A stretch of DNA of 61,610 nt from Bacteroidaceae bacterium (GTDB lineage Bacteria > Bacteroidota > Bacteroidia > Bacteroidales > Bacteroidaceae): positions 1 to 61,610 of the forward strand of contig JAFWAX010000012.1 of assembly GCA_017507385.1 (NCBI GenBank), written 5' to 3'. Position 1 is the first letter of the stretch, and the number at the start of each line of letters is the position of its first letter. Shown here piece after piece: positions 13,997-49,953 of this stretch. The position numbers were made by a program, and so were the translations under genes. A model generated the notes under the pieces. It was not told where the DNA came from, did not search any database, and worked only from the letters and a program-made list of their open reading frames with translations.

Positions 13997-14059
13997 AAGG
14001 TGGGCCTTCATCGCAATTACGTTGCACTCGTCAACGTAATTGCGATGAAGGGTGTGGCG
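13997..14059. repeat. 23-bp-period array, AGGGTGT class (3 units)
   Basis: Three 17-bp units at 13997-14013, 14020-14036 and 14043-14059 are separated by 6-bp spacers CAATTA and TAATTG. The first and third are inverted relative to each other, producing a perfect 19-bp inverted repeat (14006-14024 with 14032-14050). It begins 2 bp after the Nudix stop codon. No T-run follows, so it is not a standard terminator. Confidence 0.75.
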
Positions 14060-14096
14060 TGTTCGTGGTGAAGAACGTGAAGAAATGATTGAAAAT

Positions 14097-14159
14097 CGGT
14101 GTGCCCCACACCGCTATGGCGAAGTGCCCCACATCGACACATCGGTGTGGGGCACACCG
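14097..14159. repeat. 23-bp-period array, GTGCCCCAC class (3 units)
   Basis: Units CGGTGTGCCCCACACCG (14097-14113), CGAAGTGCCCCACATCG (14120-14136) and CGGTGTGGGGCACACCG (14143-14159) stand at exact 23-bp steps. The 6-bp spacers are CTATGG and ACACAT. The first and last units are perfect 7-3-7 palindromes and reverse complements of each other. It lies 37 bp past the array at 13997-14059. Confidence 0.9.
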
Positions 14160-14273
14160 ATAATGCAGCTGTTCAAGTGTGGCGCAACCACGAATTTATA
14201 TGTGCTAATGGCGCTTGGAAAATGGGAGGAAAAGGAGTTTTGCATCCTTGTTGGCAGATTCTCTGTTTCTCTT

Positions 14274-14304
14274 TTTGATATTTTTCTTTTTTGTGCTATC
14301 TTTG
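14274..14304 (+). promoter_or_regulatory. Promoter of the small secreted protein / uvrD / nspC unit
   Basis: TTTG (14274-14277), a 19-bp spacer and TATCTTTG (14297-14304) match the Bacteroidetes consensus. A GAGGAGG ribosome-binding-like stretch and the ATG at 14338 follow. Confidence 0.8.
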
Positions 14305-14337
14305 TGCACTTAAAAATTATTCATGAGGAGGAAAAAC

Positions 14338-14751
14338 ATGATGAAGAAAATACTTTTTATGCTCAGCATGGCATTGGTGGCCATTGCGGGACATGCGCAG
14401 GAGCAGTTCGAGGGTATGTGGCAGTGTGAAGCGCTGGGTGCGACAATGGTGCTCAATCTTGCCGAAAAGAATATCTCTTTGAAAGATTTTGAAGGCGAGG
14501 ACACCTATGGATATGTGAAGGGCGACCTGAATGGCACATGGGTGATACTGAAAGTGAAAGAGGTGAAGGACAATAAGGCGCTGGTGAGAATGGTGAGCGA
14601 TATTGGCCACGATGCTCAGGACGTGGAGCTGAAGCTGACGAAGGAGGGAACACTCGAGTTGAAGCTGGTGGGTGAACAGAACATCAAGACAATAGTGAAG
14701 CAGAAGTATGTGAAACTGCCCAAGGTGTCTGTGTTCAAGAAAAATGAGTAG
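14338..14751 (+). CDS. Small secreted protein of unknown function
   Basis: A 137-residue protein. The ATG at 14338 is preceded by GAGGAGGAAAAAC. The signal peptide MMKKILFMLSMALVAIAGHAQ is followed by a mature domain that looks like a short lipocalin-type barrel: FEGMWQCEALGATMVLNLAEK, GYVKGDLNGTWVILKVKEVK and LTKEGTLELKLVGE. Many Bacteroidetes small secreted proteins begin this way, but I cannot assign a family. It lies 23 bp upstream of the uvrD-like gene and is probably co-transcribed. Confidence 0.75.
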   Translation: MMKKILFMLSMALVAIAGHAQEQFEGMWQCEALGATMVLNLAEKNISLKDFEGEDTYGYVKGDLNGTWVILKVKEVKDNKALVRMVSDIGHDAQDVELKLTKEGTLELKLVGEQNIKTIVKQKYVKLPKVSVFKKNE

Positions 14752-14774
14752 AAAGAAGTTGAAAATTTGAAGTT

Positions 14775-17129
14775 TTGGAGAGCTATTTAGATTCCTTTAA
14801 TCCCTCGCAGCGTGCCGCTGTTGAGTATTGCGAAGGACCTTTGCTGGTAATTGCCGGTGCTGGGTCGGGCAAGACGAGGGTGCTGACCTACAAGATTGCT
14901 TATTTGATGGAGCAGGGCTATCAGCCATGGTCTATTTTGGCGTTGACGTTTACGAACAAGGCTGCTGGCGAAATGAAATCGAGGATTGCGGATATTGTGG
15001 GGAAAGACTATGCAAGGATGTTGTGGATGGGAACATTTCATAGCATCTTTCTTCGTATTTTGCGTGCTGAGCATGAACGGATAGGCTTCTCGGCTAATTT
15101 TACTATCTATGATGCCGCTGACAGCAAAAGCCTGGTGAAATCTATCATTAAGGAGATGGGTCTGGATGACAAGAAGTATAAATCCGGAACAGTTTTGGGC
15201 ATCATTTCAAACGCAAAGAATCAGCTGATAACTGCTGAGCAGTATGTGTCAAACACAGCGAATGCACAAAGCGACGCCCGGCAAAACATGCCTGCGTTGG
15301 GGCAAATCTTCATGCGTTATAGCAGCAGATGCAAGCAGAGTGACGCGATGGATTTTGACGACATCCTTCTTTACACCTATCTGTTGTTTGACAAACATCC
15401 TGAGGTGTTGGAGAAGTGGGAACAGCGTTTCAGATATGTACTGGTGGATGAGTATCAGGATACAAATTTTGCCCAGCATCGCATTGTGTGGCAATTGACA
15501 AAAGCTCATCAGCGTGTATGTGTGGTAGGAGATGATGCTCAGAGCATCTATAGTTTTCGTGGCGCAAATATTGATAACATTCTGACATTCCAGAAGATAT
15601 ATGATGGTGCGAGACTGTTTAAGCTGGAGCAGAACTATCGTTCGACGCAGAATATCGTAGAGGCAGCAAACAGTCTCATCAGAAAGAATAGCCGTCAAAT
15701 ACAGAAAGATGTCTTTTCGGAGAATGACCGAGGAGAGAAGCTGCATCTGATGGATACGCATTCGGACTTGGAGGAGGCAAAGATGGTGGCAAATGCCATT
15801 CGCGGTGTGAAGAGAAGCGAACGATGCGAGTATTCAGATTTTGCAATTCTCTATCGCACCAATGCGCAGAGCCGTGTGTTTGAAGACACGATGCGCAAGG
15901 AGGGATTGCCATACCGTATTTATGGAGGTCTTTCGTTCTATCAGCGCAAGGAAATTAAGGATGTGATAGCTTATTTCCGATTAGCAGTTAATCCGAATGA
16001 CGAGGAAGCTTTCAAGCGTGTCATCAATTATCCGGCGCGAGGTATCGGCCAGACGACTGTGGCGAAAATTCTTGCTGTTGCGACTGCGCACGAGGTAAGC
16101 CTTTGGAGTGTTATTAGCAGCCCTGAAGCATACGAGTTGGGAGTGAACAAGGGAACGCTTGCAAAGATTGCGACGTTTCGTGAGATGATAGCTTCGTTTA
16201 TTGAACAAGCGCAGAAACTGCCAGCTAATCAGGTGGGAGCGGCAATCGTGAAACAGAGCGGTATTGTTAGCGACATCTATCAGGATGCCACGCCAGAGAA
16301 TTTGTCAAGGCAAGAGAATGTTGAAGAACTGATGAATGGCATGCAGGACTTCTGCGAAACGAGATTGGAGGAGGGTGATGAGAATATTGCGCTGAGCGAC
16401 TATCTGTCGGAAGTGTCGCTGATGAGCGATGTCGATGCCGACCAGGGGGATGACGAGCACAGGGTGACGTTGATGACGATTCACTCGGCTAAAGGACTGG
16501 AGTTTGGCACAGTATTTGTAGTAGGTCTTGAGGAAGGGCTTTTCCCGAATCAGATGGTATCAGGCAATCTGCGTGAGATGGAGGAGGAACGCCGTCTTTT
16601 CTATGTGGCGATGACAAGAGCAAAGAAACGTTGCTATCTCTCTTATGCGCAATGCCGTTTTCGCTATGGGCAGATGGAATTTTCTGCACCAAGCCGCTTC
16701 TTGCAAGATATTGACCCGAGGTATCTGGAAAGGAAACAAGGCATGTTCTCTTCTCGAAAGAACATAGATGATGAGGTGGAACTGCCATGGAAACGGAGAG
16801 GAGGATTGTTCGCTAACAGGGAAAGTCAGGAGACTTCGCGTCCATTCCGCCCGACGATGCCATCATCTGTTAAGCCTATGCCTGTTGCCAACCCTGTTGC
16901 AGCTTCACGTCCTGCATCGTTCGCAGATTCCACTCCTCCTGTTCTGCATTCGGCTCAAGCTTCATCCTCGCTTTCTGTCGGTAAGCACATTGTTCACAAT
17001 CGTTTCGGGCGTGGAGAGGTTCTTCGTATAGAAGGAACAGGCGATAGCACAAAAGCTACGGTGCAATTTGAGAATGTAGGAACGAAACAGCTGTTGTTGA
17101 AATTTGCCAAATTTGAAGTAATTGATTGA
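14775..17129 (+). CDS. UvrD/PcrA-type superfamily 1A DNA helicase
   Basis: A 784-residue 3'-5' helicase for nucleotide excision and mismatch repair and clearance of stalled forks. The start is TTG at 14775 (MESYLDSFNPSQ), because an in-frame stop at 14760-14762 rules out anything earlier. Conserved pieces are the Q-motif LNPSQ-like FNPSQRAAV, Walker A GAGSGKT 28-34, LTFTNKAAGEMKSRI, VDEYQDTN near 223-230, and VALMTIHSAKGLEF-like VTLMTIHSAKGLEF. The C-terminal PcrA Tudor-like domain (HNRFGRGEVLRIEG) binds RNA polymerase in the known family. The stop lies 17 bp before the nspC start. PcrA and UvrD names are both used in Bacteroidetes. Confidence 0.96.
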   Translation: MESYLDSFNPSQRAAVEYCEGPLLVIAGAGSGKTRVLTYKIAYLMEQGYQPWSILALTFTNKAAGEMKSRIADIVGKDYARMLWMGTFHSIFLRILRAEHERIGFSANFTIYDAADSKSLVKSIIKEMGLDDKKYKSGTVLGIISNAKNQLITAEQYVSNTANAQSDARQNMPALGQIFMRYSSRCKQSDAMDFDDILLYTYLLFDKHPEVLEKWEQRFRYVLVDEYQDTNFAQHRIVWQLTKAHQRVCVVGDDAQSIYSFRGANIDNILTFQKIYDGARLFKLEQNYRSTQNIVEAANSLIRKNSRQIQKDVFSENDRGEKLHLMDTHSDLEEAKMVANAIRGVKRSERCEYSDFAILYRTNAQSRVFEDTMRKEGLPYRIYGGLSFYQRKEIKDVIAYFRLAVNPNDEEAFKRVINYPARGIGQTTVAKILAVATAHEVSLWSVISSPEAYELGVNKGTLAKIATFREMIASFIEQAQKLPANQVGAAIVKQSGIVSDIYQDATPENLSRQENVEELMNGMQDFCETRLEEGDENIALSDYLSEVSLMSDVDADQGDDEHRVTLMTIHSAKGLEFGTVFVVGLEEGLFPNQMVSGNLREMEEERRLFYVAMTRAKKRCYLSYAQCRFRYGQMEFSAPSRFLQDIDPRYLERKQGMFSSRKNIDDEVELPWKRRGGLFANRESQETSRPFRPTMPSSVKPMPVANPVAASRPASFADSTPPVLHSAQASSSLSVGKHIVHNRFGRGEVLRIEGTGDSTKATVQFENVGTKQLLLKFAKFEVID

Positions 17130-17146
17130 ATGAAAAGAAAGAAGAT

Positions 17147-18313
17147 ATGACTTTGCTTGAAAGCAACATAGACAAAATTCCATCGCCATGCTATGTGCTG
17201 GAAGAAAAATTGCTGCGAAGAAATTTGACGTTGATTCGCAGTGTGGCTCAACGTGCCAATGTGGAGATTATTCTGGCATTCAAGGCTTTTGCCTTGTGGA
17301 AAAGTTTCCCGATTTTTAGAGAGTATATCAGTCAAACGACAGCATCTTCATTGTTTGAAGCCCGATTGGCGAAAGAGGAATTTGGCAGCAAGGCTCATAC
17401 ATATTCGCCTGCTTATACCGAGAATGAGTTTGAGGAAATAGTGGAATGCTCAAGCCATATCACGTTCAATTCATTGAGTCAATATGAACGATTTGCGTCT
17501 ATGGCGAAAGATAAGGCTTCTGTAGGGTTGCGCGTGAATCCCGAGTACAGCGAGATAGAAACTGAGTTGTATAATCCTTGTGCTCAAGGAACAAGGTTCG
17601 GTATATTAGCAAAAGATTTGCCAGAACAGTTGCCAGAACAAATAAAGGGCTTCCACATTCATTGCCATTGTGAGTCAGGCAGCGATGTTTTTGTGCGTAC
17701 ATTGAAGCACATAGAAGAGAAATTTTCGCCTTGGTTTTCTCAGTTGAAGTGGATAAATTTTGGAGGTGGTCATTTGATGACTCGACAGGATTATGATGTG
17801 GAATTGCTGATAGAGACTTTGCAGGGATTCCATGCTCGGTATCCGCATCTGAAAGTGATTCTCGAACCTGGGAGTGCTTTTGCTTGGCAAACAGGGCCGC
17901 TTGTGGCAAAAGTGGTGGACATCGTTGAGAATAGTGGTGTGAAGACCGCTATCATTAATGCCAGCTTTACCTGTCACATGCCAGATTGTTTGGAGATGCC
18001 TTATAAGCCCGCTGTGCGTCATGCCGTAACGCTTGAAGAGGAAGACCTTGAGACAGCAAGAAATACACCACATACTTATCGTATTGGTGGCAATTCCTGC
18101 TTGTCAGGTGACTTTATGGGATTGTGGCAATTTGACCATGACCTTCGAATAGGTGAGATGCTTATCTTTGAAGACATGATTCATTATACAACTGTGAAAA
18201 CCAATATGTTCAATGGTATAGGCCATCCTTCCATTGGCATGTTGTATGAGAATGGGGCGTTTGAACTTTTTAGACGATATGTTTATGAAGACTATCGTGA
18301 CAGGATGTGTTGA
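17147..18313 (+). CDS. nspC: Carboxynorspermidine/carboxyspermidine decarboxylase
   Basis: A 388-residue fold-type III PLP enzyme that decarboxylates carboxyspermidine or carboxynorspermidine in the alternative polyamine pathway of gut Bacteroidetes. I chose the ATG at 17147 after AAAGAAAGAAG; a TTG at 17126 overlapping the uvrD stop is the longer option. The PLP lysine is in ILAFKAFALW (Lys46). The specificity features FHIHCHCESG, GGGHLMTRQDYD, ILEPGSAFAW and NASFTCHMPDCLEMPYKP match NspC rather than LysA. Its usual partner, carboxyspermidine dehydrogenase, is not in the window. It overlaps the uvrD transcript. Confidence 0.93.
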   Translation: MTLLESNIDKIPSPCYVLEEKLLRRNLTLIRSVAQRANVEIILAFKAFALWKSFPIFREYISQTTASSLFEARLAKEEFGSKAHTYSPAYTENEFEEIVECSSHITFNSLSQYERFASMAKDKASVGLRVNPEYSEIETELYNPCAQGTRFGILAKDLPEQLPEQIKGFHIHCHCESGSDVFVRTLKHIEEKFSPWFSQLKWINFGGGHLMTRQDYDVELLIETLQGFHARYPHLKVILEPGSAFAWQTGPLVAKVVDIVENSGVKTAIINASFTCHMPDCLEMPYKPAVRHAVTLEEEDLETARNTPHTYRIGGNSCLSGDFMGLWQFDHDLRIGEMLIFEDMIHYTTVKTNMFNGIGHPSIGMLYENGAFELFRRYVYEDYRDRMC

Positions 18314-18324
18314 GGACTAAATCC

Positions 18325-18903
18325 TTAATGCAAAATGAATTTGTTTTGTCCAGAGTTCCAAGCGAATGCCCGATGAGTAGGGTCTGATTTTTTTGCAGGC
18401 TTGTTGCTTCCATCTGTTTGCAGCACAAGTGGATTGCTTGTGGTGATGGTTAGCTGAAGGGTAGAGGGATTGATGGTGATTTTCCTGAAATCGTCAGATG
18501 TGGGTTCGTCAATGTAGTCAGATGCTTGCAGAGGTTGCCAATCTGTGGTGTAGAAACTGATTGAAGAGTCTGCTATGCTGTCGCTTGAAACAGTACTGAT
18601 TACCATAATTATTTGGGTACTGTCGCTTTTGGGGAGCAGCATCATTTCTTTCTCTGAATTTTGTGAGATGACAAGATGTGCGTATTGGTCGGTTAGCGTT
18701 TTCATCTCCGATATGGTCTTAAACTGGTTTCGTGTTTTCATTGGCTTTCCATTCTTCTGGTTGTCAACAATTTCCAGACGGTTATATTCGGAAAGTGATG
18801 GACATAGTTGCTGGGGCATATTAAGAAATATGTCTTTGAGCGATTGTCCATAAGAGACAAGAAATGAAACGCTAAACGCTAAAAGTACGAATATCTTCTT
18901 CAT
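18325..18903 (-). CDS. DUF3256 family secreted protein
   Basis: A 192-residue protein starting at the ATG at 18903 (MKKIFVLLAFSVSFLVSYGQ, signal peptide). DUF3256 is a Bacteroidetes family of unknown role. Typical elements are SLKDIFLNMPQQLCPSLSEYNRLEIVD, the long middle strand region with TTDWQPLQASDY, and a C-terminal repeat of beta strands. It is the last gene of the same-strand efflux series (57 bp after the permease stop). It may be an unrelated passenger in the operon. Confidence 0.8.
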   Translation of the reverse strand: MKKIFVLLAFSVSFLVSYGQSLKDIFLNMPQQLCPSLSEYNRLEIVDNQKNGKPMKTRNQFKTISEMKTLTDQYAHLVISQNSEKEMMLLPKSDSTQIIMVISTVSSDSIADSSISFYTTDWQPLQASDYIDEPTSDDFRKITINPSTLQLTITTSNPLVLQTDGSNKPAKKSDPTHRAFAWNSGQNKFILH

Positions 18904-18960
18904 TTGACTTTGGGATTCTTGCAATGAATTTGTCTTAAATGTAGATTTTATCAGGATAGC

Positions 18961-20184
18961 TTATTCATGCCTTATTGCTTCAATAGGATCCATGTTGGCT
19001 GCTTTACGTGCAGGGATGTAGCCAAAGATGATGCCAATGAGCGTACATACGGCAAAAGATACGTAGATAGACCATGCAGGGATGCTGGAGGGCATGCCAA
19101 TGAGAGGGAACAGTTGACTGATAAGGCATCCTAACAGTACTCCGATGAGTCCTCCTGTAAGAGATATAAGGACCGATTCGATGAGAAACTGTAGAGAGAT
19201 GACCATGCCGGTAGCGCCAACTGCCATGCGGAGACCAATTTCTTTCGTGCGTTCGGTGACGGACACGAGCATAATGTTCATGATGCCGATACCTGCCACG
19301 AGCAGTGAGAAAGCTGCTGCAACAACGAGGATGATAGTGACTGTGTCCATCGTAGAGGACATGGTGTCCATCATCTCTGCTTGTGAGCGGATGGTGAAGT
19401 CATCAACAGCATTTTCTTTCAATTTGTGATTGTTGCGCAAAATTTGAGTGAGTTCTTCGATGGCTGCATCGGAGAGTTCTTCGGTAAGTGCAGAACATAC
19501 AATTGATGAAAAATAGGTTTGTGCTGCAATGCGCTTCATGACACAGGTGTAAGGAGCGATGATGACATTGTCTTGGTCCATTCCCCATGAGTTGTAGCCT
19601 TTCCCTTCGAGCACACCGACGATGCGCAGAGGGATGGATTTGAAACGGATATTCTTGCCGATGGCTTCAGCCTCTTTACCTTCGCCAAACAACTCGTTTA
19701 CAATAGTTTTACCTACGACACATACTTTGGAAGCCTTGCGGATATCTTCTTCGTTGAAGTTCTGTCCTTCTTCTACTTTCCATTGCTTGATGTCAAGGTA
19801 TTCAGGTGATTCTCCATAGATGGTACTGGTTGTGTTGCTGTTGCCATAGATGACTTGACCAGATGCTGTCACTTCTGGAGATACGTAGCTGACAAATTTC
19901 TTCTCGTTGACAATACATTGGTAATCACCTATCTTGAGAGTCTGCATGGCAGAAGGGTCTTGGCGAACTCCTCCACGCATATCTGCACCAGGACGTATGG
20001 TCAGCAAGTTGGTTCCCATCGTTGATAGTTCTTGGCGTATGCTTTCTTTGGAGCCTTGTCCAATGGACATCATGATGATGATAGCAGCAACGCCTATAAT
20101 GATGCCAAGCATGGAAAGGAAGGAACGCATCTTGTTGTTTGCTACAGCGCGGATGCTGACTTTGAACAAATTCAGTATATTCAT
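18961..20184 (-). CDS. MacB-like ABC transporter permease
   Basis: A 407-residue FtsX/MacB-type permease: one N-terminal transmembrane helix (about 18-40, with IIIGVAAIIIMMSIG), a periplasmic MacB_PCD domain (about 45-255), then three C-terminal helices (about 275-400). The motif ERTKEIGLRMAVGAT is diagnostic. In E. coli MacB the ATPase and permease are fused; here the ATPase is a separate upstream gene (28 bp gap), the usual Bacteroidetes arrangement. With the adaptor and TolC genes upstream it should form a tripartite pump that expels peptides, lipids or macrolide-like compounds; the substrate is unknown. Confidence 0.92.
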   Translation of the reverse strand: MNILNLFKVSIRAVANNKMRSFLSMLGIIIGVAAIIIMMSIGQGSKESIRQELSTMGTNLLTIRPGADMRGGVRQDPSAMQTLKIGDYQCIVNEKKFVSYVSPEVTASGQVIYGNSNTTSTIYGESPEYLDIKQWKVEEGQNFNEEDIRKASKVCVVGKTIVNELFGEGKEAEAIGKNIRFKSIPLRIVGVLEGKGYNSWGMDQDNVIIAPYTCVMKRIAAQTYFSSIVCSALTEELSDAAIEELTQILRNNHKLKENAVDDFTIRSQAEMMDTMSSTMDTVTIILVVAAAFSLLVAGIGIMNIMLVSVTERTKEIGLRMAVGATGMVISLQFLIESVLISLTGGLIGVLLGCLISQLFPLIGMPSSIPAWSIYVSFAVCTLIGIIFGYIPARKAANMDPIEAIRHE

Positions 20185-20212
20185 TCTTTATGGGGCTTAA
20201 ATCTTTAATTCA

Positions 20213-23547: not shown

Positions 23548-23620
23548 TTTTTTCTGCTTTTTATCTGTAGTCAATGACCATTCAAAACTCAAAAAGTTTA
23601 AAATAAAGAATGAAAATAAA

Positions 23621-24060
23621 AAAGCAGTCGGACTATAAGCCGGGTTTTGTGCGCACCATCCAACGAAAGGGATGTGTTCCCCATTTCGCAGTGCGTGCCT
23701 GTCATTTATCTACTCCATGAGTCACCCCATGGCTCAAGCGTTCTACCCTCCACCGAACAATCGGGCGGGCAACCCTCGTGGCGGTGGTTTACATGAACTT
23801 GCAGCTCCCAAGATGCACAGCCGACATGTCGCCATGCCGCTGGTGAGCCCTTACCTCACCTTCTCACCATTTCAGCCGTGGCAGCATCGCTCATTCCAAA
23901 GGATTGGGCGCTAAAGCCGCGTCTGTTGTTATTTTCTTCTGCATTACTCAGCCCTCGCGGACTGCTTCTATATTAGGAAGTGGGATGCCCTGTGCTGCCC
24001 GGACTTTCCTCTTTCAGCACCTTAGAGATGCTGCCAGCGACAGACCGTCCGACTGCTTTC
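23621..24060 (-). ncRNA. rnpB: RNase P RNA (bacterial type A)
   Basis: About 440 nt on the minus strand. The ends pair over 13 bp (GTCGGAC region at 24047-24060 with 23621-23633). The conserved GAGGAAAGTCCGGGC of P4 lies at about 24015-24001, and the 3' half ends with ACCCGGCTTATAGTCCGAC. A U-run follows the 3' end. A TACCTTTG box at 24067-24074 places initiation at the 5' end. It processes 5' leaders of tRNAs such as those in this window. Confidence 0.96.
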
Positions 24061-24156: not shown

Positions 24157-26343
24157 TCAATTATCAAAGAGGTTCACAGTCACCTTTCCGAAGATGTCGT
24201 TCACGCTTGTGCCAACATGGAAAGTGTAGTTGCCCGTAAGGAGAGCCCAGTCATGCTGAGACTCGTTGAAATAACGCAGTTCCTCTGTTGGGATGAGAAT
24301 GCTGAGGGTTTGGCTTTCTCCAGGCTGGAGAAGCTTTGTCTTGGCAAATCCCTTGAGCTCCTTGATGGGGCGTGGAAGCTCGCCTTGAGGAGATTGTGCA
24401 TAGACTTGCACGACTTCCTTTCCAGCCGTTGCTCCAGTGTTGCAGACAGTAACGGTGATGGTGATTTCGTTGTCCGATTTCGCTGCCGTTGGCTGGCTGT
24501 AGCTGAAGGTTGTGTAGCTGAGTCCGAAGCCGAAGGGGAAGCGTGGTGTGACATTGTTTGTGGCGAAGTGTCGATAGCCGACGAAAATATCTTCCTTGTA
24601 ATATACTTGCTTGTTGACGCCGGGGTAGGCCTCTGGTCCGTACTTGACATAGGGGAAGTCCTCATATTTTTCAGCGAAGGTGATAGGCAGTTTTCCGCTG
24701 GGGCAGACTTTTCCGCTGAGCACGTTCACCAGTGCCGTGCCTGATTCGCTGCCCAGATACCAGCAGTGGGTTAGTGCGCTGACCTGCTTCAGCCAAGGCA
24801 TGGCATAAGGGTTGCCGCCAAATATGACCACGATGGTGTTTTTCTGTATTTCGGCAAGTTCGGCAATGAGTTCATTTTGTCCATAAGAAAGGTCGTAGGA
24901 CTCACGGTCGCCATTTTCGCAGTCTTGACGGTGATTCTTGTTCAATCCTCCGATGAAGATGACAAGGTCCGCTTCTTTTGCTTTGGCAAGCGCTTCCTCC
25001 TTCAACGCCTGTTGCTTGTCAGGGTCAATGGGGTCAACTCTGTCGTAGAGTGCGCGTCCGGCATAGTATCCCTGTGCATAGTCAATTTTGTCTCCGTAGG
25101 TTGCCAGAAATGCTTCGAGTGGCGTGATGTCGCGGAGCGACTTGAGTTCAGACGAACCTCCGCCTTTGGTCAGTGAGCGTGTAGCATTGTCGCCTACGAT
25201 GAGGATTTTCTTGTATTTTGCAGCATTGATAGGCAGGATGTTTTTCTGGTTCTTCAGCATGACGATGCCTTCTTCTGCAATCTGCCGGCAGGTTTCGTAG
25301 TGAGCTTCAGAGCATTGGCTTCCGATGACTTTATTGGGATTCATGGCTGTGCGGAAGATGGTGCGCAGCACGCGGCTTGCTTTGTCGTCAAGCACAGACA
25401 TGGGCACTTTGCCTTCCTTGAGAAGCTTCTCGAAAGGGTTGGCAAGATAATAGTGCTCGTAGCCAAATTCGCTCTCTCTCAGTTTGCCATCGGTGTAGGT
25501 GCCCATTTCGATGTCGAGACCTCCCATGGCAGCTTCCCATGTGTTGGTGGTGCCTCCCCAGTCGCTGATGAGTGCGCCATCCCAGTTCCAATCTTTTTTC
25601 AGAATCCCATTCAGCAATTCGTCGTTGTGGCAGCAATGCACATTCTTCCAGAGGTTGTACGAACCCATGATGGTCCATACGTTGGCTTTTTCGACTGCTC
25701 TCTTGAAGGGTGCCAGATAGATTTCGTGCAATGCTCTTTCGGAAACATTGACGTTGACGGTGAATCGGTCTATCTCCTGGTCGTTCAGCACAAAGTGCTT
25801 CAGGCAGCATGCCACACCGTTGGCTTGCGCAGCCTTGATGTATGGTACCAGCATCTCTCCGGCCAGATAGGGGTCTTCGCCCATATATTCAAAAGCGCGG
25901 CCATTGAGCGGGGTGCGTGCAATGTTTGCTCCAGGGCCCAGCATAATGTCTTTGCCGCGGAAGGCGAACTCTTCGCTGACAGCATCTCCGTATGCCTCTG
26001 ACATCTCTCTGTTCCATGTGGATGCGAGGCAGGTAAGGGATGGGAATGCCACGATGGAGTCGTTTGTCCATCTGGCAGGGCTCCATGTGTTCCACTCCAG
26101 CTCCTCGCGCACACCATGAGGTCCGTCATCCATGTTCAGCTGACGGATGCCGAGACGTGGCACGCCTGCGCTGGTGAACTTGCTCTGTGCATGGAGGATG
26201 TTTACTTTCTCGTGCAGGGTCATGCGGCTGAGCGCATCTTTTACGCGTTCTTCCAGCGGCGCATTAGGATCGAGATAGGTTTGTGCGTTTGTGGTCATTG
26301 ACATCACAGCGAACAATGATGCCAACATTAAAAACTTCTTCAT
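24157..26343 (-). CDS. Glycoside hydrolase family 3 (beta-glucosidase-like), secreted
   Basis: A 728-residue enzyme with signal peptide MKKFLMLASLFAVMSMTTNAQ. The GH3 N-terminal barrel carries KHFVLND (182-188) and the nucleophile motif ISDWGG with Asp261. The GH3_C domain holds GDNATRSLTKGGGSS, and a C-terminal fibronectin III-like domain (NTGATAGKEVVQVYAQSP) is present. GH3 enzymes release terminal beta-linked glucose, xylose or similar sugars; the substrate here is open. The last codons overlap two TTGATAA-type repeats. A TAGGTTTG box at 26384-26391 may be its promoter. No SusC/SusD pair is nearby. Confidence 0.94.
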   Translation of the reverse strand: MKKFLMLASLFAVMSMTTNAQTYLDPNAPLEERVKDALSRMTLHEKVNILHAQSKFTSAGVPRLGIRQLNMDDGPHGVREELEWNTWSPARWTNDSIVAFPSLTCLASTWNREMSEAYGDAVSEEFAFRGKDIMLGPGANIARTPLNGRAFEYMGEDPYLAGEMLVPYIKAAQANGVACCLKHFVLNDQEIDRFTVNVNVSERALHEIYLAPFKRAVEKANVWTIMGSYNLWKNVHCCHNDELLNGILKKDWNWDGALISDWGGTTNTWEAAMGGLDIEMGTYTDGKLRESEFGYEHYYLANPFEKLLKEGKVPMSVLDDKASRVLRTIFRTAMNPNKVIGSQCSEAHYETCRQIAEEGIVMLKNQKNILPINAAKYKKILIVGDNATRSLTKGGGSSELKSLRDITPLEAFLATYGDKIDYAQGYYAGRALYDRVDPIDPDKQQALKEEALAKAKEADLVIFIGGLNKNHRQDCENGDRESYDLSYGQNELIAELAEIQKNTIVVIFGGNPYAMPWLKQVSALTHCWYLGSESGTALVNVLSGKVCPSGKLPITFAEKYEDFPYVKYGPEAYPGVNKQVYYKEDIFVGYRHFATNNVTPRFPFGFGLSYTTFSYSQPTAAKSDNEITITVTVCNTGATAGKEVVQVYAQSPQGELPRPIKELKGFAKTKLLQPGESQTLSILIPTEELRYFNESQHDWALLTGNYTFHVGTSVNDIFGKVTVNLFDN

Positions 26344-26502: not shown

Positions 26503-26565
26503 CGTTGTGCCCCACATCGGCGTGTCGTTGTGCCCCACACCGATGAACCGTTGTGCCCCACACCG
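26503..26565. repeat. 23-bp-period array, GTGCCCCAC class (3 units, all same direction)
   Basis: Units CGTTGTGCCCCACATCG (26503-26519), CGTTGTGCCCCACACCG (26526-26542) and the same again (26549-26565) have spacers GCGTGT and ATGAAC. The element is exactly 63 bp, between the GH3 promoter region and the hairpin at 26602-26632. Confidence 0.9.
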
Positions 26566-26703: not shown

Positions 26704-27198
26704 CTATTTGAATATATATTGCTTTATCAGCTGCTGCATGTCCTCAGGTGTTTCTTTTGTCTTGCAGCAGTCAACGATAAATTGGACGAGTTCTTTGGGC
26801 ATGTTGGTCTGCTTTTTCCAAATGTCATGACGAGTGTTCCATGTGCTTTTTGTTGTAGTCTTGTCAACCCAGACAATGGCATCTTTGAGTTTTTCACGTC
26901 CCATTTCAGAATACCATCCATCTTTGAATGTGTAAGTGCCATGCTCATGAGGCATGACAGCACATTGTCCGTCAGACAGGACAAGTAGGGCGCAAGCATA
27001 TTCGCCATCAGCTCCATAATACTTGAATTGTACATAGCCGGTCTCCTTGCCACATACGATTTTGTTTTCGCCTTCCCACTGCATGGATTCCATGAGCCAT
27101 GCACCAACGATTTCCTTGTCGTCGATTTTTACGTTTTGTGCATTAGCCTGCATCGCACTCATGAGTGCCATAGCCATCACTAAAATCACTTGTTTCAT
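26704..27198 (-). CDS. Secreted protein, DUF4488-like
   Basis: A 164-residue protein with signal peptide MKQVILVMAMALMSAMQANAQ. The mature part opens with a lipocalin-like IVGAWLMESMQWEGEN, then GYVQFKYYGADGEYACALLVLSDGQCAV and HGTYTFKDGWYSEMGREK, and ends in an alpha-helical tail with MPKELVQFIVDCC. This pattern resembles Bacteroidetes DUF4488 proteins, which have no known function; the family call is from memory of the pattern and only moderate. It has its own promoter at 27241-27272. Confidence 0.7.
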   Translation of the reverse strand: MKQVILVMAMALMSAMQANAQNVKIDDKEIVGAWLMESMQWEGENKIVCGKETGYVQFKYYGADGEYACALLVLSDGQCAVMPHEHGTYTFKDGWYSEMGREKLKDAIVWVDKTTTKSTWNTRHDIWKKQTNMPKELVQFIVDCCKTKETPEDMQQLIKQYIFK

Positions 27199-31965: not shown

Positions 31966-32028
31966 CGATGCAGGGTGCAGCGTAATTACGATAGAGGGTG
32001 TAACGTAATTAGGATGCAGGGTGTAACG
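31966..32028. repeat. 23-bp-period array, AGGGTGT class (3 units)
   Basis: Units CGATGCAGGGTGCAGCG (31966-31982), CGATAGAGGGTGTAACG (31989-32005) and GGATGCAGGGTGTAACG (32012-32028) are all in one direction. Both 6-bp spacers are TAATTA. It lies in the divergent intergenic region between the DUF2752 and ModF-like genes. Confidence 0.9.
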
Positions 32029-34596: not shown

Positions 34597-34659
34597 CGTA
34601 CCCCTCGGGTACGATACATCGCACCCCTCGGGTTCGCCATGGCGTACCCGAGGGGTGCG
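34597..34659. repeat. 23-bp-period array, divergent class (3 units)
   Basis: Units CGTACCCCTCGGGTACG (34597-34613), CGCACCCCTCGGGTTCG (34620-34636) and CGTACCCGAGGGGTGCG (34643-34659) have spacers ATACAT and CCATGG. The first is a perfect 7-3-7 palindrome. Geometry is identical to the GTGCCCCAC class although the bases differ. The rest of 34415-34766 shows no gene. Confidence 0.9.
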
Positions 34660-39887: not shown

Positions 39888-39996
39888 CGGTGTGCCCCAC
39901 AACGGCACGTTGGTGTGGGGCACACCGATGTATCGTTGTGGGGCACACCGTTTTTACGTTGCAGAATGTATCGTAATTATGCTGCAGGGTGTATCG
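39888..39996. repeat. 23-bp-period array of five units joining both sequence classes
   Basis: Three GTGCCCCAC-class units lie at 39888-39904, 39911-39927 and 39934-39950 (the first in one direction, the other two inverted). Two AGGGTGT-class units, CGTTGCAGAATGTATCG (39957-39973) and TGCTGCAGGGTGTATCG (39980-39996), continue in the same 23-bp register. The spacers are GCACGT, ATGTAT, TTTTTA and TAATTA. This locus shows that the two classes belong to one system. Confidence 0.9.
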
Positions 39997-43537: not shown

Positions 43538-43623
43538 TTATATAATAGTGAAATGTGTTTCGAGTGTAGAGCGTTTCTTGTTTAACCCTATCGACACATG
43601 TGACTTTTTGAAAGGCAAATGGT

Positions 43624-46600
43624 TTAATGGGATGCCTCGTTTTTTTTCTTTTTAGTCTTGATACGCTTCCGAATTGACTCAAAGTCGTGACGCCAAGATA
43701 GGCCAATTCCTTGTGTGTTGAGGGTGGCTTTCGTGAAATATCGGTCGTTGGTCTGGTTGTATGCTCTTAGATAGAGATTGCCGTTTTGACTCATGCGCCA
43801 TTTGACTTCAAAATCGCCAATAAAGTTACCTTGGTTTGTTAGGGCGTTGTCGCGGTAGCCGAAAGCTCCGTTGATGAGAAGTCTGTCGTCGAAGAGTTTA
43901 CCTTCGAGCAATCCTTCTACATCAAGGTCGTCCCATCCTTTTTCTCCAGTGGTGAGCGATGATCCGAAGTTCCAGTTTGTATCGTTGCCTATCATGCTGC
44001 TGAGCATTTGATTGATCTGTCCGCTGAGGGTAGAGGATAGGAGGGAGTTCATGGCTTGCCCTGAGTTGTTGCCGCCATTATTGCGGGCATATTCGTTGGG
44101 GTAGAAGCGTCCGAGTCCCAGCAGATAAATCATTTGTGTGTTCATTTCTTCTTCGGAGTTAATCATGGAACGGACAAGTTGACGCACTTCTTCACTTACG
44201 TTGGGAATATTCATGTCGAACTTGAAATCCATGTTGCCCAGTTTTCCTGTGATGTCAAGGATTCCGATGACTTTGACTTTGTTGTTTTGTGTGAATGCTG
44301 TCGTGGACGTGAGGTCGCTGAGTGGAACAGAATTGATGGTGTGATGGCAAATAAGGTGTATGTTGGCATCGAAAGGGTTGCCATTGAATTCTACAAGTGA
44401 ACCTGGCTGAAGGGCAAGGTCGCGGAAAATGATGTCCTGCAGATATAATCGATAGAATCCTGAATTGATGTTGTAGTTTCCAAACAGCTGGAAAGTTCCT
44501 TTGTTATACCATTGGGCAGTTAGTTTTGCATTGCCAAATGTTCTCATGTAACCATCCTCAATGTTGTCCATTCGTAGTTTTACCTCGCAATCTGGTGTCA
44601 GATTGATGTCGAAGTTGATATAAATGTCACTATTGTAATTCTTTTTCGCTTCTTTTACTATTGCAAGCGAGTCTTTCTCGGTTTCTTTTTTTGTAGAAGA
44701 ATACATGTATCCTTTGTCGGGATGAAGTGTCTGCAATGAGTCGCGGTCACGGAATTCTATGAATGAATTTCCTGTGATAGCATCGGGGGTTGCTGCATCG
44801 TAAGCGAAAACGGAACCTCTTGTTGGGGTGACGTTTGCGTTTACATATAGCGGATGTCCATCAGATCCACTGACAGTAAGCGTACCGTCGGCAAAAACGG
44901 TGGCAAGGAATTTATCGCTGTTGAATTCGTGTTCGTCGTATGCGAGCAATTCATCAAGGTCAACATGAAAGTTATACTCGAAATTTTTCATGTTGCGATG
45001 TGTAACTTTTCCGTTGAGATTGGAGCGATGTCCGAACCTGTCGTAAATGCTGATGTTTTTGAAATCAAATAGATAAGGGCGTAGATGGAGGGTGTCTCCT
45101 TCTATGTGGTAGGGTACATTCGTGGCGCGCAGACGGAGATTCATGTTAGGTACAGCATCGCCAACGATGTTGACATCGTTTAGTGGGCCAATGATGCTGA
45201 TTGGACCTGTGACATGCCCATTCACCTCTTTGAAAATTCCTCCCAAGAATCCGTGTATGAAAGAAGCGTTTGTATTGTGGGTGCCGACATTTATTTGTAT
45301 GTCATTGCGTGCAGGAGAAACCCAACCATTGACGGTTGTAATGCCAGTGATGTTTTTTTCTTTTCCCGTAAGTGCGTCTGGCACTCTATAGAGGTCAACG
45401 ATACGTCCTTCGACAGAAATGCCTTCAATTTCTTCGTCCCATTTAGCGGTGATGTTGGCATTGCCCAATGGTCCTTCTTGTATGGAAAGGTCTTCAACAG
45501 ACAAATTGGCGTGGATGTTCGGTGTTCCCCCTGATATGATATTGTTGAAGAAGGCTTGGCCAGAAGCTTTTCCCGCGAAACGTACAACATGGAAGTTTAC
45601 GAGTGTCAAGAGGTATTTGATTTCCAAGTTTTTGAGTGTTGCGACAAGCGAATCAGAAGGAGATTCTGATGCTCGTCCATCAATAGACAAAAAGCTATTT
45701 GCATTATCGTTGGCAAACATGACTTGGTCGCACTCTAAACTTTTTTGGTAAAGCGAAATGCGGGAAGGTGAAATGGTCCAAGTTGTATCGTTGATGACTG
45801 CGTTTGACTTACGCAAGACAATATCCGTTTTGGTGTTGCCTAAAGAATCGCTAAATTGGATGACGGGGAGGAGTTGCATGGTAATGTTGTTCCATCCTGT
45901 CGTGTTAATGTACATGTCACTATAAATGACATTGTTGTGTATGTCAGCTGTGAGGTCAAGTTTGGTGGAAGAGGACGGAATGTCATCGTCGTTGCTTATT
46001 TTATATGTGGCAGCAATGGCATGCACATTCATGTTGTCGGAAGTTGTGTTGCATACTAATGCGATGTTGTCGTAGTCTTTTTCATTATAGCTAATACTTG
46101 GAGCATCGATGTTGAGTGACATTTGTTCGTTGTCGGAACTCAGGTTTCCAAACACTCTGACAGGTTTGGTTAAAGCGAATTTCGTATCTGTGAAATGGTG
46201 TAGAACAGGGGCATCTTTTATTGAGATTTCGTAGGCGAAATCCGTTGCTGGTATGTTTTGTTTTTTTATAAGAATAGGCAAGTGGTGCGATAATTGATTG
46301 GTGAAGTTAGCAACGATATCGGCAAGTGATGCGTGTCCTTCAATGGATGCTGTGAGAATTTCACTATCGATACTGTACAGACTTGTTTCATCTTCTTGCT
46401 TTTGGGCATTGATGATGATATCTTTCAATGGATAGTTTTCTTCTTTTGTTTGCAGGTTGATGTTGCTGAGCTCAATGTTGCCATACAAATGCTTGAAATC
46501 TTTTCCTTTCAGCTGCGCAATGGCTTTCATTGACAATTCTTCTTCTTTGTCAGTTTTGACAAGGTTGAGATTGCCGAAGTGGATTTTATCTAAAGACAAA

Positions 46601-48129
46601 TCAAGTTGAATGTCTTTGTGTGGAGTGTCTGCATAAGTAATGTTGGCATGGGATTTTAGGTTCTCGTCATCGATGTCAACCGTGCTTTTCATGCCAGTTG
46701 AATGGCTTTGTACATCTATGCTGATGTTGTGATAAGTGTAATCATTGTAGGCTATGTTGTGGATTTTTCCTGAAGCCTTAGCCGTGGGCAATGTGTGTGA
46801 AGAAGCCGTGTTGTATGTAACATCAAAGTTGAAAGATGCTATTCCCAATCGCTTGTCGTTCAGTATCTTGCCAATGTGCAAGCTGTCTCCTGATATGATG
46901 CCGGATAGGGTCTTGTCCGTATCGTATATGATGTCGTATTCTGCCGAACCGATGGCGGTTTTGAAATGTCCGTCAGAGAGTAATTCTTTAGTGGAATTGT
47001 ATTTGATGTGTCCGGAGTATGTGAAGTCTTTGATATGATGGATTAGACTGTCTTCGTAATTGGGAATGAAGATGTTTGCTATGTTGGGAATTTCTTCGTC
47101 TTTAAGATTGAAATATGATATGTGAGAATCGATTTCTCTAAGTTTTTCATTGGTGGGATGAGATATGTTTGCATTTGCATTGAGAGTGATGTTATTGCCA
47201 GAATGGACATTGAAGTCTGGTATTGTAATTGTCTTCTCATCTCCTTTGATGCTGAAACTGAAATGAATGGGCGTGCTGAATGATTGCAATTTCTTCTCAA
47301 TAGATGCAAGGTCGTTGGGGGTGATTGTTCCTGCGATAGGGGTGCTGTGCAATGTGAAAGTGCTGTCTTTCTCTGAATGTTGGAAATCGACAATTAAAGA
47401 GTCTGTAGCTATGTGAGAATGGGGGAGTGATATGCTGAAATCGGTAAGGTGAGCTTGCTGGTTGTTCACTATTAGCTTAAAATGCGTGTCATGAAGGGAC
47501 AGACCTGAATTGAGTTCGCTGGCTTGCAGACGACGTACTGAAATGTTGAGAGAGTCTTTTGTGAAGCTGCGCAAAGCGATGTTCATGCCGCAATCATTCA
47601 GGTGTATGTGATTGACGTCTATAGCGTTAGGATGTGTTTTCTCCGATTTTATGTCATAACTGATGTCTGCATGGCGAATGATGAAAGAGCCAATTCGCAG
47701 GTTGATAGGGGTGGATTGGTCTTCCTGCTCGCTGGTGAAAGCATCGATGAGGAACTGGTAGTTGGGGGCACTTTCTGTGGTTTGTTTATAGAGGGTTGCA
47801 TGAGTGCCGAATAGCTGCGCTGTTCCTATGTCTATTTTTCCAGAAAATAATGCAAAGAGATTGATGCTGGCGGACACTCGTGCTATGCTTGCCATAGGCT
47901 TTCCGTCTGGTTCGTAAATAGCCATGTCGTTGACGATTATACGATTGAGAAAACCTAAATTGATGCTTCCAATCTTTACTTGGGTCTTTAACTCGCTGGA
48001 AAGTATATTAGCAGTCCATTTTGCCAAATTATTCTGCATAAATGGCAAACTGAATAAAAGGACAATGGCTGCATAGGTTGCGACAATTGTCCCTGTAATG
48101 TTTACTAATATTTTTTCGAGTTTTTTCAA
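43624..48129 (-). CDS. tamB: Translocation and assembly module protein TamB
   Basis: A 1501-residue AsmA-like bridging protein. One N-terminal transmembrane helix (about 12-32, NITGTIVATYAAIVLLFSLPF) is followed by a very long beta-helical region rich in alternating strands. The C-terminal TamB/DUF490 domain carries GSFIEFRDRDSLQ-like strands, QPGSLVEFNGNPFDANIHL and the closing WRHDFESIRKRIKTKKKK. TamB spans the periplasm and is thought to guide phospholipids or outer-membrane proteins with TamA/TamL. The partner gene lies beyond the esterase (1.3 kb). The longest gene in the window. Confidence 0.92.
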   Translation of the reverse strand: MKKLEKILVNITGTIVATYAAIVLLFSLPFMQNNLAKWTANILSSELKTQVKIGSINLGFLNRIIVNDMAIYEPDGKPMASIARVSASINLFALFSGKIDIGTAQLFGTHATLYKQTTESAPNYQFLIDAFTSEQEDQSTPINLRIGSFIIRHADISYDIKSEKTHPNAIDVNHIHLNDCGMNIALRSFTKDSLNISVRRLQASELNSGLSLHDTHFKLIVNNQQAHLTDFSISLPHSHIATDSLIVDFQHSEKDSTFTLHSTPIAGTITPNDLASIEKKLQSFSTPIHFSFSIKGDEKTITIPDFNVHSGNNITLNANANISHPTNEKLREIDSHISYFNLKDEEIPNIANIFIPNYEDSLIHHIKDFTYSGHIKYNSTKELLSDGHFKTAIGSAEYDIIYDTDKTLSGIISGDSLHIGKILNDKRLGIASFNFDVTYNTASSHTLPTAKASGKIHNIAYNDYTYHNISIDVQSHSTGMKSTVDIDDENLKSHANITYADTPHKDIQLDLSLDKIHFGNLNLVKTDKEEELSMKAIAQLKGKDFKHLYGNIELSNINLQTKEENYPLKDIIINAQKQEDETSLYSIDSEILTASIEGHASLADIVANFTNQLSHHLPILIKKQNIPATDFAYEISIKDAPVLHHFTDTKFALTKPVRVFGNLSSDNEQMSLNIDAPSISYNEKDYDNIALVCNTTSDNMNVHAIAATYKISNDDDIPSSSTKLDLTADIHNNVIYSDMYINTTGWNNITMQLLPVIQFSDSLGNTKTDIVLRKSNAVINDTTWTISPSRISLYQKSLECDQVMFANDNANSFLSIDGRASESPSDSLVATLKNLEIKYLLTLVNFHVVRFAGKASGQAFFNNIISGGTPNIHANLSVEDLSIQEGPLGNANITAKWDEEIEGISVEGRIVDLYRVPDALTGKEKNITGITTVNGWVSPARNDIQINVGTHNTNASFIHGFLGGIFKEVNGHVTGPISIIGPLNDVNIVGDAVPNMNLRLRATNVPYHIEGDTLHLRPYLFDFKNISIYDRFGHRSNLNGKVTHRNMKNFEYNFHVDLDELLAYDEHEFNSDKFLATVFADGTLTVSGSDGHPLYVNANVTPTRGSVFAYDAATPDAITGNSFIEFRDRDSLQTLHPDKGYMYSSTKKETEKDSLAIVKEAKKNYNSDIYINFDINLTPDCEVKLRMDNIEDGYMRTFGNAKLTAQWYNKGTFQLFGNYNINSGFYRLYLQDIIFRDLALQPGSLVEFNGNPFDANIHLICHHTINSVPLSDLTSTTAFTQNNKVKVIGILDITGKLGNMDFKFDMNIPNVSEEVRQLVRSMINSEEEMNTQMIYLLGLGRFYPNEYARNNGGNNSGQAMNSLLSSTLSGQINQMLSSMIGNDTNWNFGSSLTTGEKGWDDLDVEGLLEGKLFDDRLLINGAFGYRDNALTNQGNFIGDFEVKWRMSQNGNLYLRAYNQTNDRYFTKATLNTQGIGLSWRHDFESIRKRIKTKKKKNEASH

Positions 48130-48200
48130 GTAATTCTTATATCTTAATATATATAGAAGGATTAATTCTGCGTCGTGATGAATTGCTTGGAATTTAATGG

Positions 48201-48692
48201 TTAAAGTTCCATCTTCCGTTTGAAGTCAATCATCTTGATTGCAGTAATGGCGCATTCGTCGCCTTTGTTGCCCATGGCTCCACCTGCTCTGTCTTCTGCT
48301 TGCTGCATGTCAAGTGTTGTGATGAGTCCGTAAATGACGGGCTTTTCTTGAGTGGCATTTAGGTGCGCTAATCCGTAAGTGGTTCCTTGGCAGATGTAGC
48401 GGTCATGCGGAGTGTCTCCTCTAATGACACAGCCGATGGCGATAACTGCATCTACTTCTTTTTTCAGCATTTGGGATGCTCCGTAGATGAGTTCAAAGCT
48501 GCCGGGCACTGTCATGACAGGTATGTCGGAAGGCTTTACGCCGTGTTTCACGAGCGTTTCCTTTGCACCGTCGAGTAGTGAAGCTGTGATGTTTTCGTTC
48601 CATTCTGCCACAACGATGCCAATCTTCATGCCTGTTGCGTTTGGAACGGAGTTGATGTCGTAGTCGGAGAGATTGTGATTTTTTGTTGCCAT
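48201..48692 (-). CDS. ribH: 6,7-dimethyl-8-ribityllumazine synthase
   Basis: The 163-residue RibH condenses 5-amino-6-ribitylaminouracil with dihydroxybutanone phosphate in riboflavin synthesis. Conserved pieces are the substrate-binding WNENIT (31-36), VPGSFEL (62-68), [13 protein letters not shown] with catalytic His96, and the [14 protein letters not shown]-like [16 protein letters not shown]. An inverted repeat (48707-48774) separates it from the upstream TPR gene. No FMN riboswitch is evident. Confidence 0.97.
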
Positions 48693-48706
48693 AGTGGTAT
48701 GGATAC

Positions 48707-48774
48707 AGAATGAGGAATTAGGACTTGTCGCCAGACGTCTTCATTGCGTTGGTTCATTCCTAATTCCTCATTCT
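48707..48774. repeat. 17-bp perfect inverted repeat upstream of ribH
   Basis: AGAATGAGGAATTAGGA (48707-48723) and TCCTAATTCCTCATTCT (48758-48774) flank a 34-bp loop. It fills the gap between the TPR gene stop and the ribH start on the minus strand. No U-run follows, so it may be a terminator relic, an mRNA hairpin or a small mobile repeat. Confidence 0.6.
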
Positions 48775-48797
48775 TTGTTTTTATTGGTTGTCTCTAT

Positions 48798-49472
48798 TTA
48801 TTTTGTTGCACGTTCGATGTATTTGTCAATATCCTGCGAAATAGGGCTGCGGAAATAAACATTCTTGATTTTGTTGTAAAGCTCAACAGCCTTATCGTTC
48901 TGATTCATTGATTCATACACTTGACCAGCCTGAAGAAGGAATACAGGGCTGACAGCATCGTTGTCTGCCTTGTTTGCGGCTTCAAGCAGAGTCTTGATGC
49001 CTTTCTCGTTGTCGCCTTTTTGGATGTAAAGGTTTCCAAGAGCTGCAATGGCTGCTGGAGATACGATGTCATCATCTTGTACAGAGAAGTCTTCGAGGAA
49101 CTTGATAGCTTCATCTACGCTGTCAACCTTTGCGTAAGACAATCCTGCGTAGAGTTTTGCGATGTTTGCAGTTTTTGTTCCGCTATACTCGTTGATGATT
49201 CTGATGAAGCCAAAGCTGTTGCCATCGCCGTTGAGCGCTTGTTCGTACTGCTCCTGAGCAAATGCAACCTGAGCAATTGCAATCGCTTTCTGTGCTTCAA
49301 CTTCTTTTTCTGCCATCAGGTTCTTGTAGATATAAAAACCTGTAACAACTACGATGACAACGCCAAGGATGGCAGCAATTTTTTTCCAGTTCTTCTCAAT
49401 GAAAGCCTCGCTCTTGTTAAGCTGTACGTCAAGTGCGATTGGCTCGTCAATTTTTTGTTCTTTCTTTGCCAT
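48798..49472 (-). CDS. TPR protein with one N-terminal membrane helix (YfgM-like)
   Basis: A 224-residue protein with a short cytosolic N-terminus, a transmembrane helix at about 30-50 (IAAILGVVIVVVTGFYIYKNL), then TPR repeats facing the periplasm, such as AKLYAGLSYAKVDSVDEAIKFLEDF and AALGNLYIQKGDNEKGIKTLLEAAN. The layout matches YfgM/TPR_21 proteins, ancillary to the SecYEG translocon and chaperones in proteobacteria. The same role here is inference. A TAATTTTG box at 49512-49519 may be its -7 element. Confidence 0.85.
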   Translation of the reverse strand: MAKKEQKIDEPIALDVQLNKSEAFIEKNWKKIAAILGVVIVVVTGFYIYKNLMAEKEVEAQKAIAIAQVAFAQEQYEQALNGDGNSFGFIRIINEYSGTKTANIAKLYAGLSYAKVDSVDEAIKFLEDFSVQDDDIVSPAAIAALGNLYIQKGDNEKGIKTLLEAANKADNDAVSPVFLLQAGQVYESMNQNDKAVELYNKIKNVYFRSPISQDIDKYIERATK

Positions 49473-49686
49473 GATATGTTTATTGTTTTTTTTACTTTAA
49501 CAAAAATCATGCAAAATTAATACATTTTCCTTTAATATTAAAAGTTTTTAGGAAAAATCTTTGAGTGGATTCTTACTTTTCTTCTTATCGATGTTTTTGA
49601 TTTGTCAAAAGAAAGACGGTCAGCATCATGGAACGGAGGGGAATTTTTCGGAAAGGTCAACAAGAATTCATTTTGGCAAGTGTCAA

Positions 49687-49772
49687 GCCGCTCCTCCGTA
49701 TCGTAATCGTGTTATATCGCGCAGCGTAATTACGTCGCGCCTTGCAATGTAATTGCGATACAGGGCGTAGCC
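49687..49772. repeat. 23-bp-period array, AGGGTGT class, degenerate (4 units)
   Basis: Units at 49687-49703, 49710-49726, 49733-49749 and 49756-49772 have 6-bp spacers TAATCG, TAATTA and TAATTG. The last unit CGATACAGGGCGTAGCC keeps the class core, and the others are more diverged. It lies 119 bp before the array at 49891-49953, not in register with it. The 49473-49974 gap holds only these arrays and a possible promoter. Confidence 0.65.
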
Positions 49773-49890
49773 TAATGAAAAGTCTGCTTGCGTGAAAAAC
49801 AATAGCCTTTGTTGCGTGAACTTGATTGTATGCCTTTGTTGCAGAAAGCTGCGCATCCCATTGAAAAATGCTTCTTATGGAACCCAAAAA

Positions 49891-49953
49891 CGATGTGCCC
49901 CACACCGATTTGTCGTTGTGGGGCACATCAAGTTGTCGTTGTGGGGCACATCG
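49891..49953. repeat. 23-bp-period array, GTGCCCCAC class (3 units)
   Basis: Units CGATGTGCCCCACACCG (49891-49907), CGTTGTGGGGCACATCA (49914-49930) and CGTTGTGGGGCACATCG (49937-49953) have spacers ATTTGT and AGTTGT. The first unit is inverted relative to the other two, as at 39888. It ends 22 bp before the GH127 stop codon. Confidence 0.9.

Follow-up and report, generated by a model that had tools for sequence, protein, structure and literature searches.

Dispersed arrays of 17-bp palindromic units at a fixed 23-bp step, widespread in one genus of Bacteroidaceae

Introduction

The described systems nearest to the arrays that are the subject of the present work, which are built from 17-bp units separated by linkers of 6 bp, are the REP, BrickBuilt and STAR elements and the Rickettsia palindromic elements, each of which differs from the arrays in a feature that was tested. 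REP elements with RAYT (Y1) transposases are tagged by GTAG or CGTC, and their CGTC families have stems of 8-9 bp and loops of 4-5 bp, according to the excerpt of the source used here (PMC3733652). The arrays are like the REP and BIME sequences of that excerpt (PMC3733652) in being short, abundant palindromes that lie mostly between genes and close to 3' ends, in clusters of alternating orientation, and that occur patchily among species; they are unlike REP elements in having 7-bp arms, a 3-bp centre and fixed 6-bp linkers, and in that no Y1 transposase was found in the host or in seven array-rich genomes.

The BrickBuilt MITE of Porphyromonas gingivalis, with the consensus AGAYCATARTATCCTCTCRTRTG, consists of 23-nt repeats in tandem without spacers in the extract of its description (PMC4596501). 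It shares with the arrays an occurrence in the Bacteroidales, a 23-nt period, intergenic placement and perhaps inverted-repeat ends, but the array units, compared by eye, show no resemblance to the published consensus (PMC4596501). Rickettsia palindromic elements, which the partial account gives as about 150 bp long and often inside genes (PMC10969869), are palindromic repeats as well, and one of the arrays lies in frame within an enzyme gene; the arrays differ from them, however, in occurring in one known gene and otherwise nearly always outside genes, and in the rigid spacing of their units. The STAR elements of staphylococci resemble the arrays as interspersed, intergenic, GC-rich motifs whose loci vary among species and whose way of spread is not known, but in the excerpted source (PMC3532100) they consist of 14-bp direct repeats spaced by 40 bp or more, whereas the arrays are 17-bp dyads with 6-bp linkers. 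Unlike CRISPR arrays, with their unique spacers of roughly repeat length, the arrays have spacers of 6 bp and mostly three units per cluster.

An earlier note on this DNA had named no described element with this architecture, and none was found in the literature on such elements, in the titles and the openings of abstracts among the matches listed. The arrays are real, widespread in the genus and unusual, and they look like an undescribed family of spreading DNA repeats that are read by a protein. Their combination of a conserved geometry with a sequence that is swapped in concert allows one to ask what keeps the dispersed repeats of bacteria uniform.

Results

Arrays in the window

The window, by which is meant the whole stretch of 61,610 nucleotides that was analysed, contains eight stretches which, on re-reading of the sequence, each split into 17-bp units and 6-bp linkers; both their positions and this division bear out the earlier note. 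Three sequence types are present: type A, with the unit CGNTGTG-SSS-CACANCG; type B, with degenerate units and TAATTA-like linkers; and type C, with the unit CGTACCCCTCGGGTACG. Type A is represented by the three-unit array at 14097-14159 (plus strand, order FFR), in which unit 1 is the exact reverse complement of unit 3; by the array at 26503-26565 (FFF), which lies between the genes at 24157-26343 and 26704-27198, both on the minus strand; by the minus-strand array at 39888-39950, which reads FRR on the plus strand, is flanked by AAAAA and TTTTT and again has units 1 and 3 as exact reverse complements; and by the minus-strand array at 49891-49953, also FRR on the plus strand, which is 21 bp from the 3' end of the minus-strand gene at 49975. 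Type B comprises an array of three degenerate units with caatta and taattg linkers at 13997-14059, located 2 bp beyond the stop codon of a gene with a NUDIX domain (13389-13994, plus strand); an array with taatta linkers at 31966-32028, with divergent genes on either side; two units at 39957-39996 (39957-39973 and 39980-39996), which share the 23-bp register of the type A array preceding them; and a degenerate tract of four units at 49687-49772 with taatcg, taatta and taattg linkers. The single type C array, at 34597-34659, has convergent genes on either side. The FFR, FFF and FRR unit orders reported previously are all present.

When the window was scanned for 7-3-7 palindromes having at least 6 of 7 pairs, two of them stood 23 bp apart eight times and 46 bp apart five times, while every other distance from 8 to 119 bp occurred at most twice. 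A strict test for triples, requiring 18 of 21 pairs and covering steps of 17 to 39 bp, was passed by four of the eight stretches (those at 14097, 26503, 34597 and 39888), at step 23 only, and by nothing in 50 windows generated from a Markov model. The other four stretches are less palindromic and more degenerate members of the family. The CG that had been given as usual at unit ends has exceptions: the array at 13997 starts with AAGG, unit 3 of the array at 31966 with GG and unit 2 of the array at 39888 with TG.

Copies in the host genome and their placement

The host genome (G000; 2.38 Mb in 84 contigs, 78% complete) was searched with a covariance model trained on eight 63-bp segments of the window, which, with 150 of its 392 candidates scored, gave at least 126 strand-matches having E values of 0.01 or less. 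The 69 host rows, which include the window array at 34597 added by hand, merge where they overlap into at least 66 separate tracts; further copies with conserved spacing are thus present genome-wide, and relatives in the genus carry more. Type A accounts for 46 of the 63 full-length rows, most of which have AAAAT, ATTTT or similar runs at their flanks, and its unit orders are FFR in 19, FRR in 18, FFF in 3, RRF and FRF in 2 each, and RRR and RFF in 1 each; FFR and FRR are a single element read from opposite sides. Type B often adjoins type A, in a common 23-bp register at three places (39888-39996 in the window, and on contigs C81 and C5). A region of contig C34 (about 7754-7866), near a type B array, is 82% like the type C region of window 34597 by blastn.

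Placement was determined with a home-made gene caller. The 69 host rows fall between tandem genes in 36 cases, between convergent genes in 21 and between divergent genes in 9, with 2 overlapping called genes and 1 at an edge. The 56 arrays of the relative G013 are divided into 30 tandem, 6 convergent, 12 divergent, 2 gene-overlapping and 6 edge cases, and the 31 of G007 into 15, 8, 4, 2 and 2. The bias of array placement towards non-coding DNA is accordingly strong, and frequent insertion into genes is not seen (2/69, 2/56 and 2/31). The median distance to 3' as against 5' gene ends is 77 against 252.5 bp in G013 and 46 against 277 bp in G007. The earlier statement that all copies are intergenic holds in the window, where no array is inside a called gene, but one copy in the host genome is in frame within a gene for glycerate kinase. 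One array-overlapped gene is common to G000, G013 and G007.

Distribution among relatives and search for a linked gene

A genus model made from 37 arrays of seven genomes, applied at E up to 0.001 with up to 109 candidates scored per genome, has matches in 24 of 45 genomes of the genus, a count which may miss other core types, and in 13 of the 14 whose completeness is 90% or more and whose contamination is 5% or less. The number of strand-matches per congener ranges from 0 to at least 109. An order-wide search with 12 candidates scored per genome found matches in 2 of 393 genomes, namely the host and a genome from another family of the order (G204), whose weak hit lies at about 857-897 of locus L235. 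This hit is two isolated 17-bp palindromes with 6 bp between them, followed by a T run, and looks like an ordinary terminator. The exact two-unit pattern of type A was not found among named genomes, a set that may leave out records near the host, and the queries used detected no array-related sequence in collections of plasmids, phages and viral contigs.

The search for a gene linked to the arrays was directed at the Y1 transposase (PF01797) and found no link. No PF01797 match was obtained in the host, at 78% completeness, or in the array-rich genomes G007, G010, G011, G013, G014, G044 and G060. Near full-length hits occur in eight genomes, among which G019 is the only one with array matches; in G003 and G047, which bear arrays, the hits above the cut-off are partial. 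The GTAG and CGTC tags are at the ends of neither type A nor type C units in the host; the type B unit at 49733 happens to begin with CGTC, and CGTC also occurs within arms in other species. An origin of the arrays as REP/RAYT elements was rejected on these two grounds, the absence of a Y1 transposase from the host and the seven array-rich genomes and the lack of a consistent tag.

Constant spacing, changing cores and linkers

The starts of neighbouring units are 23 bp apart in 96 of 96 pairs in G000, 60 of 61 in G007 and 73 of 75 in G013, and three units make up 46 of 50, 19 of 27 and 33 of 36 multi-unit clusters in these genomes. These counts, which leave out clusters of a single unit (22, 41 and 56, with chance hits among them), are partly ascertained, because most of the loci came from a three-unit model that favours them; the palindrome scan of the window is the one analysis free of this effect. 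A 17+7 version of the geometry occurs in 17 of the 56 scanned G013 arrays and at single loci in G023 and G041.

The sequence placed on this geometry differs among species. The core types include TGCCCCA, TCCCCGA, TCGTCGA, TGACTCA and CCCGACGGG; the unit CGACGTGCCCCACGTCG and its variants are found in G003, G007 and G047, CGAYGTCCCCGAYGTCG in G013 and G014, TCGTCGA cores in G016 and GAGTC cores in G057. All 56 scanned G013 arrays have a single core type, against 16.5 expected from independent units, while in genomes with one dominant core the same comparison has no power (44 of 46 against 44.0 in G000, 28 of 31 against 25.4 in G007). Of the 92 linkers of 6 bp in the host, 77 are distinct, and in G013 GTCGAC and its relatives predominate.

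Five G007 loci (L162, L167, L170, L171 and L232) contain four to six units at the 23-bp step, mostly in one orientation and with similar linkers. G013 locus L187 has, at 1506-1637, a head-to-tail pair of arrays that differ in core and keep a common 23-bp register. The pair lies immediately 3' of a gene whose product we take to be a XerC/XerD-like protein.

The glycerate kinase site

In G000, G007 and G013 an array lies in frame at the same position in a gene presumed from its sequence motifs to encode glycerate kinase. A protein search matched 34 of the 45 genus genomes, and of the 30 loci that were fetched, 13 have an array at this same site and 17 have none that the scan could find. The cores at the site are TGCCCCA in G000 and G007, TCCCCGA in G013 and G014, TCGTCGA in eight genomes and CCCGACGGG in G057. 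The array has thus been retained at one site within a gene with four core types in one frame, so that the encoded peptide varies while the geometry of the DNA is constant.

Trees of the parts of the gene before and after the array each require 5 core changes, where the least possible number is 3. The starred branches force TCGTCGA (type D) at least two times in both part-gene trees, TGCCCCA two times in the upstream tree and TCCCCGA two times in the downstream tree. The repeated changes of core are based on both half-gene trees and not on a whole-gene tree alone, because the gene is a mosaic: the G003 gene (L328) groups with G055 upstream (87/95) and with G014 downstream (100/99), its nearest relative switching at or near the array. 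Because of this mosaic structure, arrays may arrive together with exchanged pieces of the gene, and exchange between species or copies does contribute at this site.

The G059 and G017 arrays have 4 mismatches in 63 bases, compared with a divergence at third codon positions of 45% upstream and 42% downstream; for G003 and G017 it is 1 mismatch in 63, compared with 28% upstream and 47% downstream. In G011 and G013, all 12 linker bases are identical and the cores differ in all three units. These comparisons argue for maintenance of the glycerate kinase arrays at the level of the DNA, by selection or by conversion, and the similarity of arrays across species may reflect exchange rather than selection. 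With 13 aligned copies in a coding frame, the site is one at which recombination, selection and co-evolution with a protein could be told apart.

Flanks, junctions and empty sites

About three further 23-bp repeats (GAGGNNGTGGAAG...) stand on either side of the three units in G013, and outer arms of this form are not seen in the host. Copies on two G013 contigs are alike over 170 bp at 95.9%, and the flanks that copies have in common stop at differing points (about 24-35, 75 and 150 bp). Putative terminal inverted repeats of about 18 bp adjoin the core in G013 and of about 5 bp in the host, with no constant outer ends. No target-site duplication could be shown and no exact empty site was found. 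A G013 array is missing from the same gene pair in G044, the sole relative that keeps both neighbours close.

The junction between a gene for an aspartyl-tRNA-synthetase-like protein and an Omp85-domain gene holds a type A array in G000 and, near the Omp85 stop, a type C array in G002, G019 and G047. The former protein is presumably the aspS product, the domains supporting the class; among named records, the top hit of the window's copy belongs to rumen isolate RUG242, which is labelled Prevotellaceae. Among 30 fetched junction loci, several of which lack the whole junction, the scan found no further junction array; one array lies elsewhere in the fetched locus of G023.

Discussion

The reading preferred here, which is considered about as likely to be right as wrong, is that the arrays are copies of a dispersed DNA repeat that is non-autonomous, is recognised at its dyads by a putative sequence-specific protein, and is spread and overwritten by recombination. 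Each 17-bp unit would be a dyad that a dimer of such a protein recognises in double-stranded DNA, and an element would usually comprise three of these sites in a fixed 23-bp phase. The element would spread to many intergenic sites, mostly 3'-proximal, and existing arrays would be overwritten with other cores when dispersed or exchanged copies recombine or undergo conversion; as a result, the geometry would stay constant while the dominant sequence came to differ between genomes. The comparisons above show the dispersal, the constant spacing, the uniform core of each array in the genome where this can be tested, the differing sequences of species and the persistence of an array, with four core types, at a site in one gene. 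What we infer from them is the binding protein, which could be either a host factor or the enzyme that spreads the repeat, and conversion as the way in which arrays are overwritten. The earlier suggestion of sites for a multimeric DNA-binding protein is still plausible, although no such protein was found; if one exists, it would belong to a chromosome-wide DNA-binding system that changes its specificity in a gut lineage. A bolder and improbable proposal is that a trans-acting system writes the current core onto all three units genome-wide and leaves the linkers untouched, by a homing-like or guided rewriting, in which case the core type would be an inherited and invading identity.

The main rival to a spreading repeat is a host system of operator or architectural sites, in which a chromosomal protein binds three cooperating dimers per array and organises or regulates the locus; the arrays would then not be selfish, and their cores would change because the protein shifts its specificity or has paralogues. 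Such a system, which is doubtful but deserves serious weight, would account for the rigid spacing seen in the host alongside free linkers, for the glycerate kinase arrays that are more alike than the gene around them in pairs such as G059 and G017, and for the identical linkers of G011 and G013 beside three differing cores. It does not sit well with the small number of near-matching orthologous array places (1 between G000 and G013, 4 between G000 and G007, and 3 between G007 and G013) or with the spread of strand-match numbers among congeners. Rapid simultaneous change at dozens of sites is, moreover, unusual for a regulon, and this was counted against it. It is improbable that the arrays are instead a passive repeat, a 23-bp minisatellite combined with quasi-palindromes that were dispersed by chance recombination and perfected by template switching with no trans factor, although the clusters of four to six units in G007 are of the kind it would produce and the pairing of host units is favourable to it: in 37 host FFR and FRR arrays, units 1 and 3 are identical as reverse complements in 11 cases against 3.0 in shuffled data, and units 2 and 3 in 5 against 1.0, while same-oriented units are identical in none of the 37. 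Template switching between the arms of inverted repeats would give such identity, as the consulted part of a published account indicates (PMC8604942), and could be the source of the excess in the host. The excess is nevertheless absent in G013 and G007, with pairing of units 2 and 3 in the step-23 arrays of G013 falling below that of shuffles, and chance does not readily explain the uniform cores, the modal number of three units, the kept units with drifting linkers or the gene site common to 13 loci.

A string of RNA hairpins, the other role that the earlier note had envisaged, is not supported by the strand and context tests, on which hairpins or terminators were set aside as the main reading. 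That the arrays act in RNA, as bidirectional intrinsic terminators or as hairpin strings in mRNA at gene ends, is very unlikely, even though AAAAT...ATTTT flanks are frequent and the arrays of G013 and G007 are nearer to 3' than to 5' gene ends. The strand that tolerates G.T pairs does not track transcription, being the mRNA strand in 11 of 18 informative arrays in G000, 10 of 21 in G013 and 6 of 13 in G007, and the polarity of the wobble strand is significant in the step-23 arrays of G013 only. The arms inside one unit do not covary in the host, and self-hairpins were rejected as the coupled structure there because the coupling joins units of opposite orientation and not the arms of a unit. 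Divergent genes surround 9 of 69 host rows and 12 of 56 G013 arrays, and the array in 13 glycerate kinase loci lies in the middle of an open gene, where translation could, however, mask hairpins. No array in the window matched Rfam at the gathering score, and in 18 loci of relatives the matches were all below gathering scores.

Other features of the window

Tandem repeats with a 69-bp step occupy positions 1322-2066, within the called gene at 1292-2245 on the minus strand. The Rfam matches above gathering scores are the RNase P RNA at 23620-24056 (minus strand) and the Bacteroidales small SRP RNA at 13188-13294 (plus strand), and there are three tRNAs, at 3828, 9929 and 13295.
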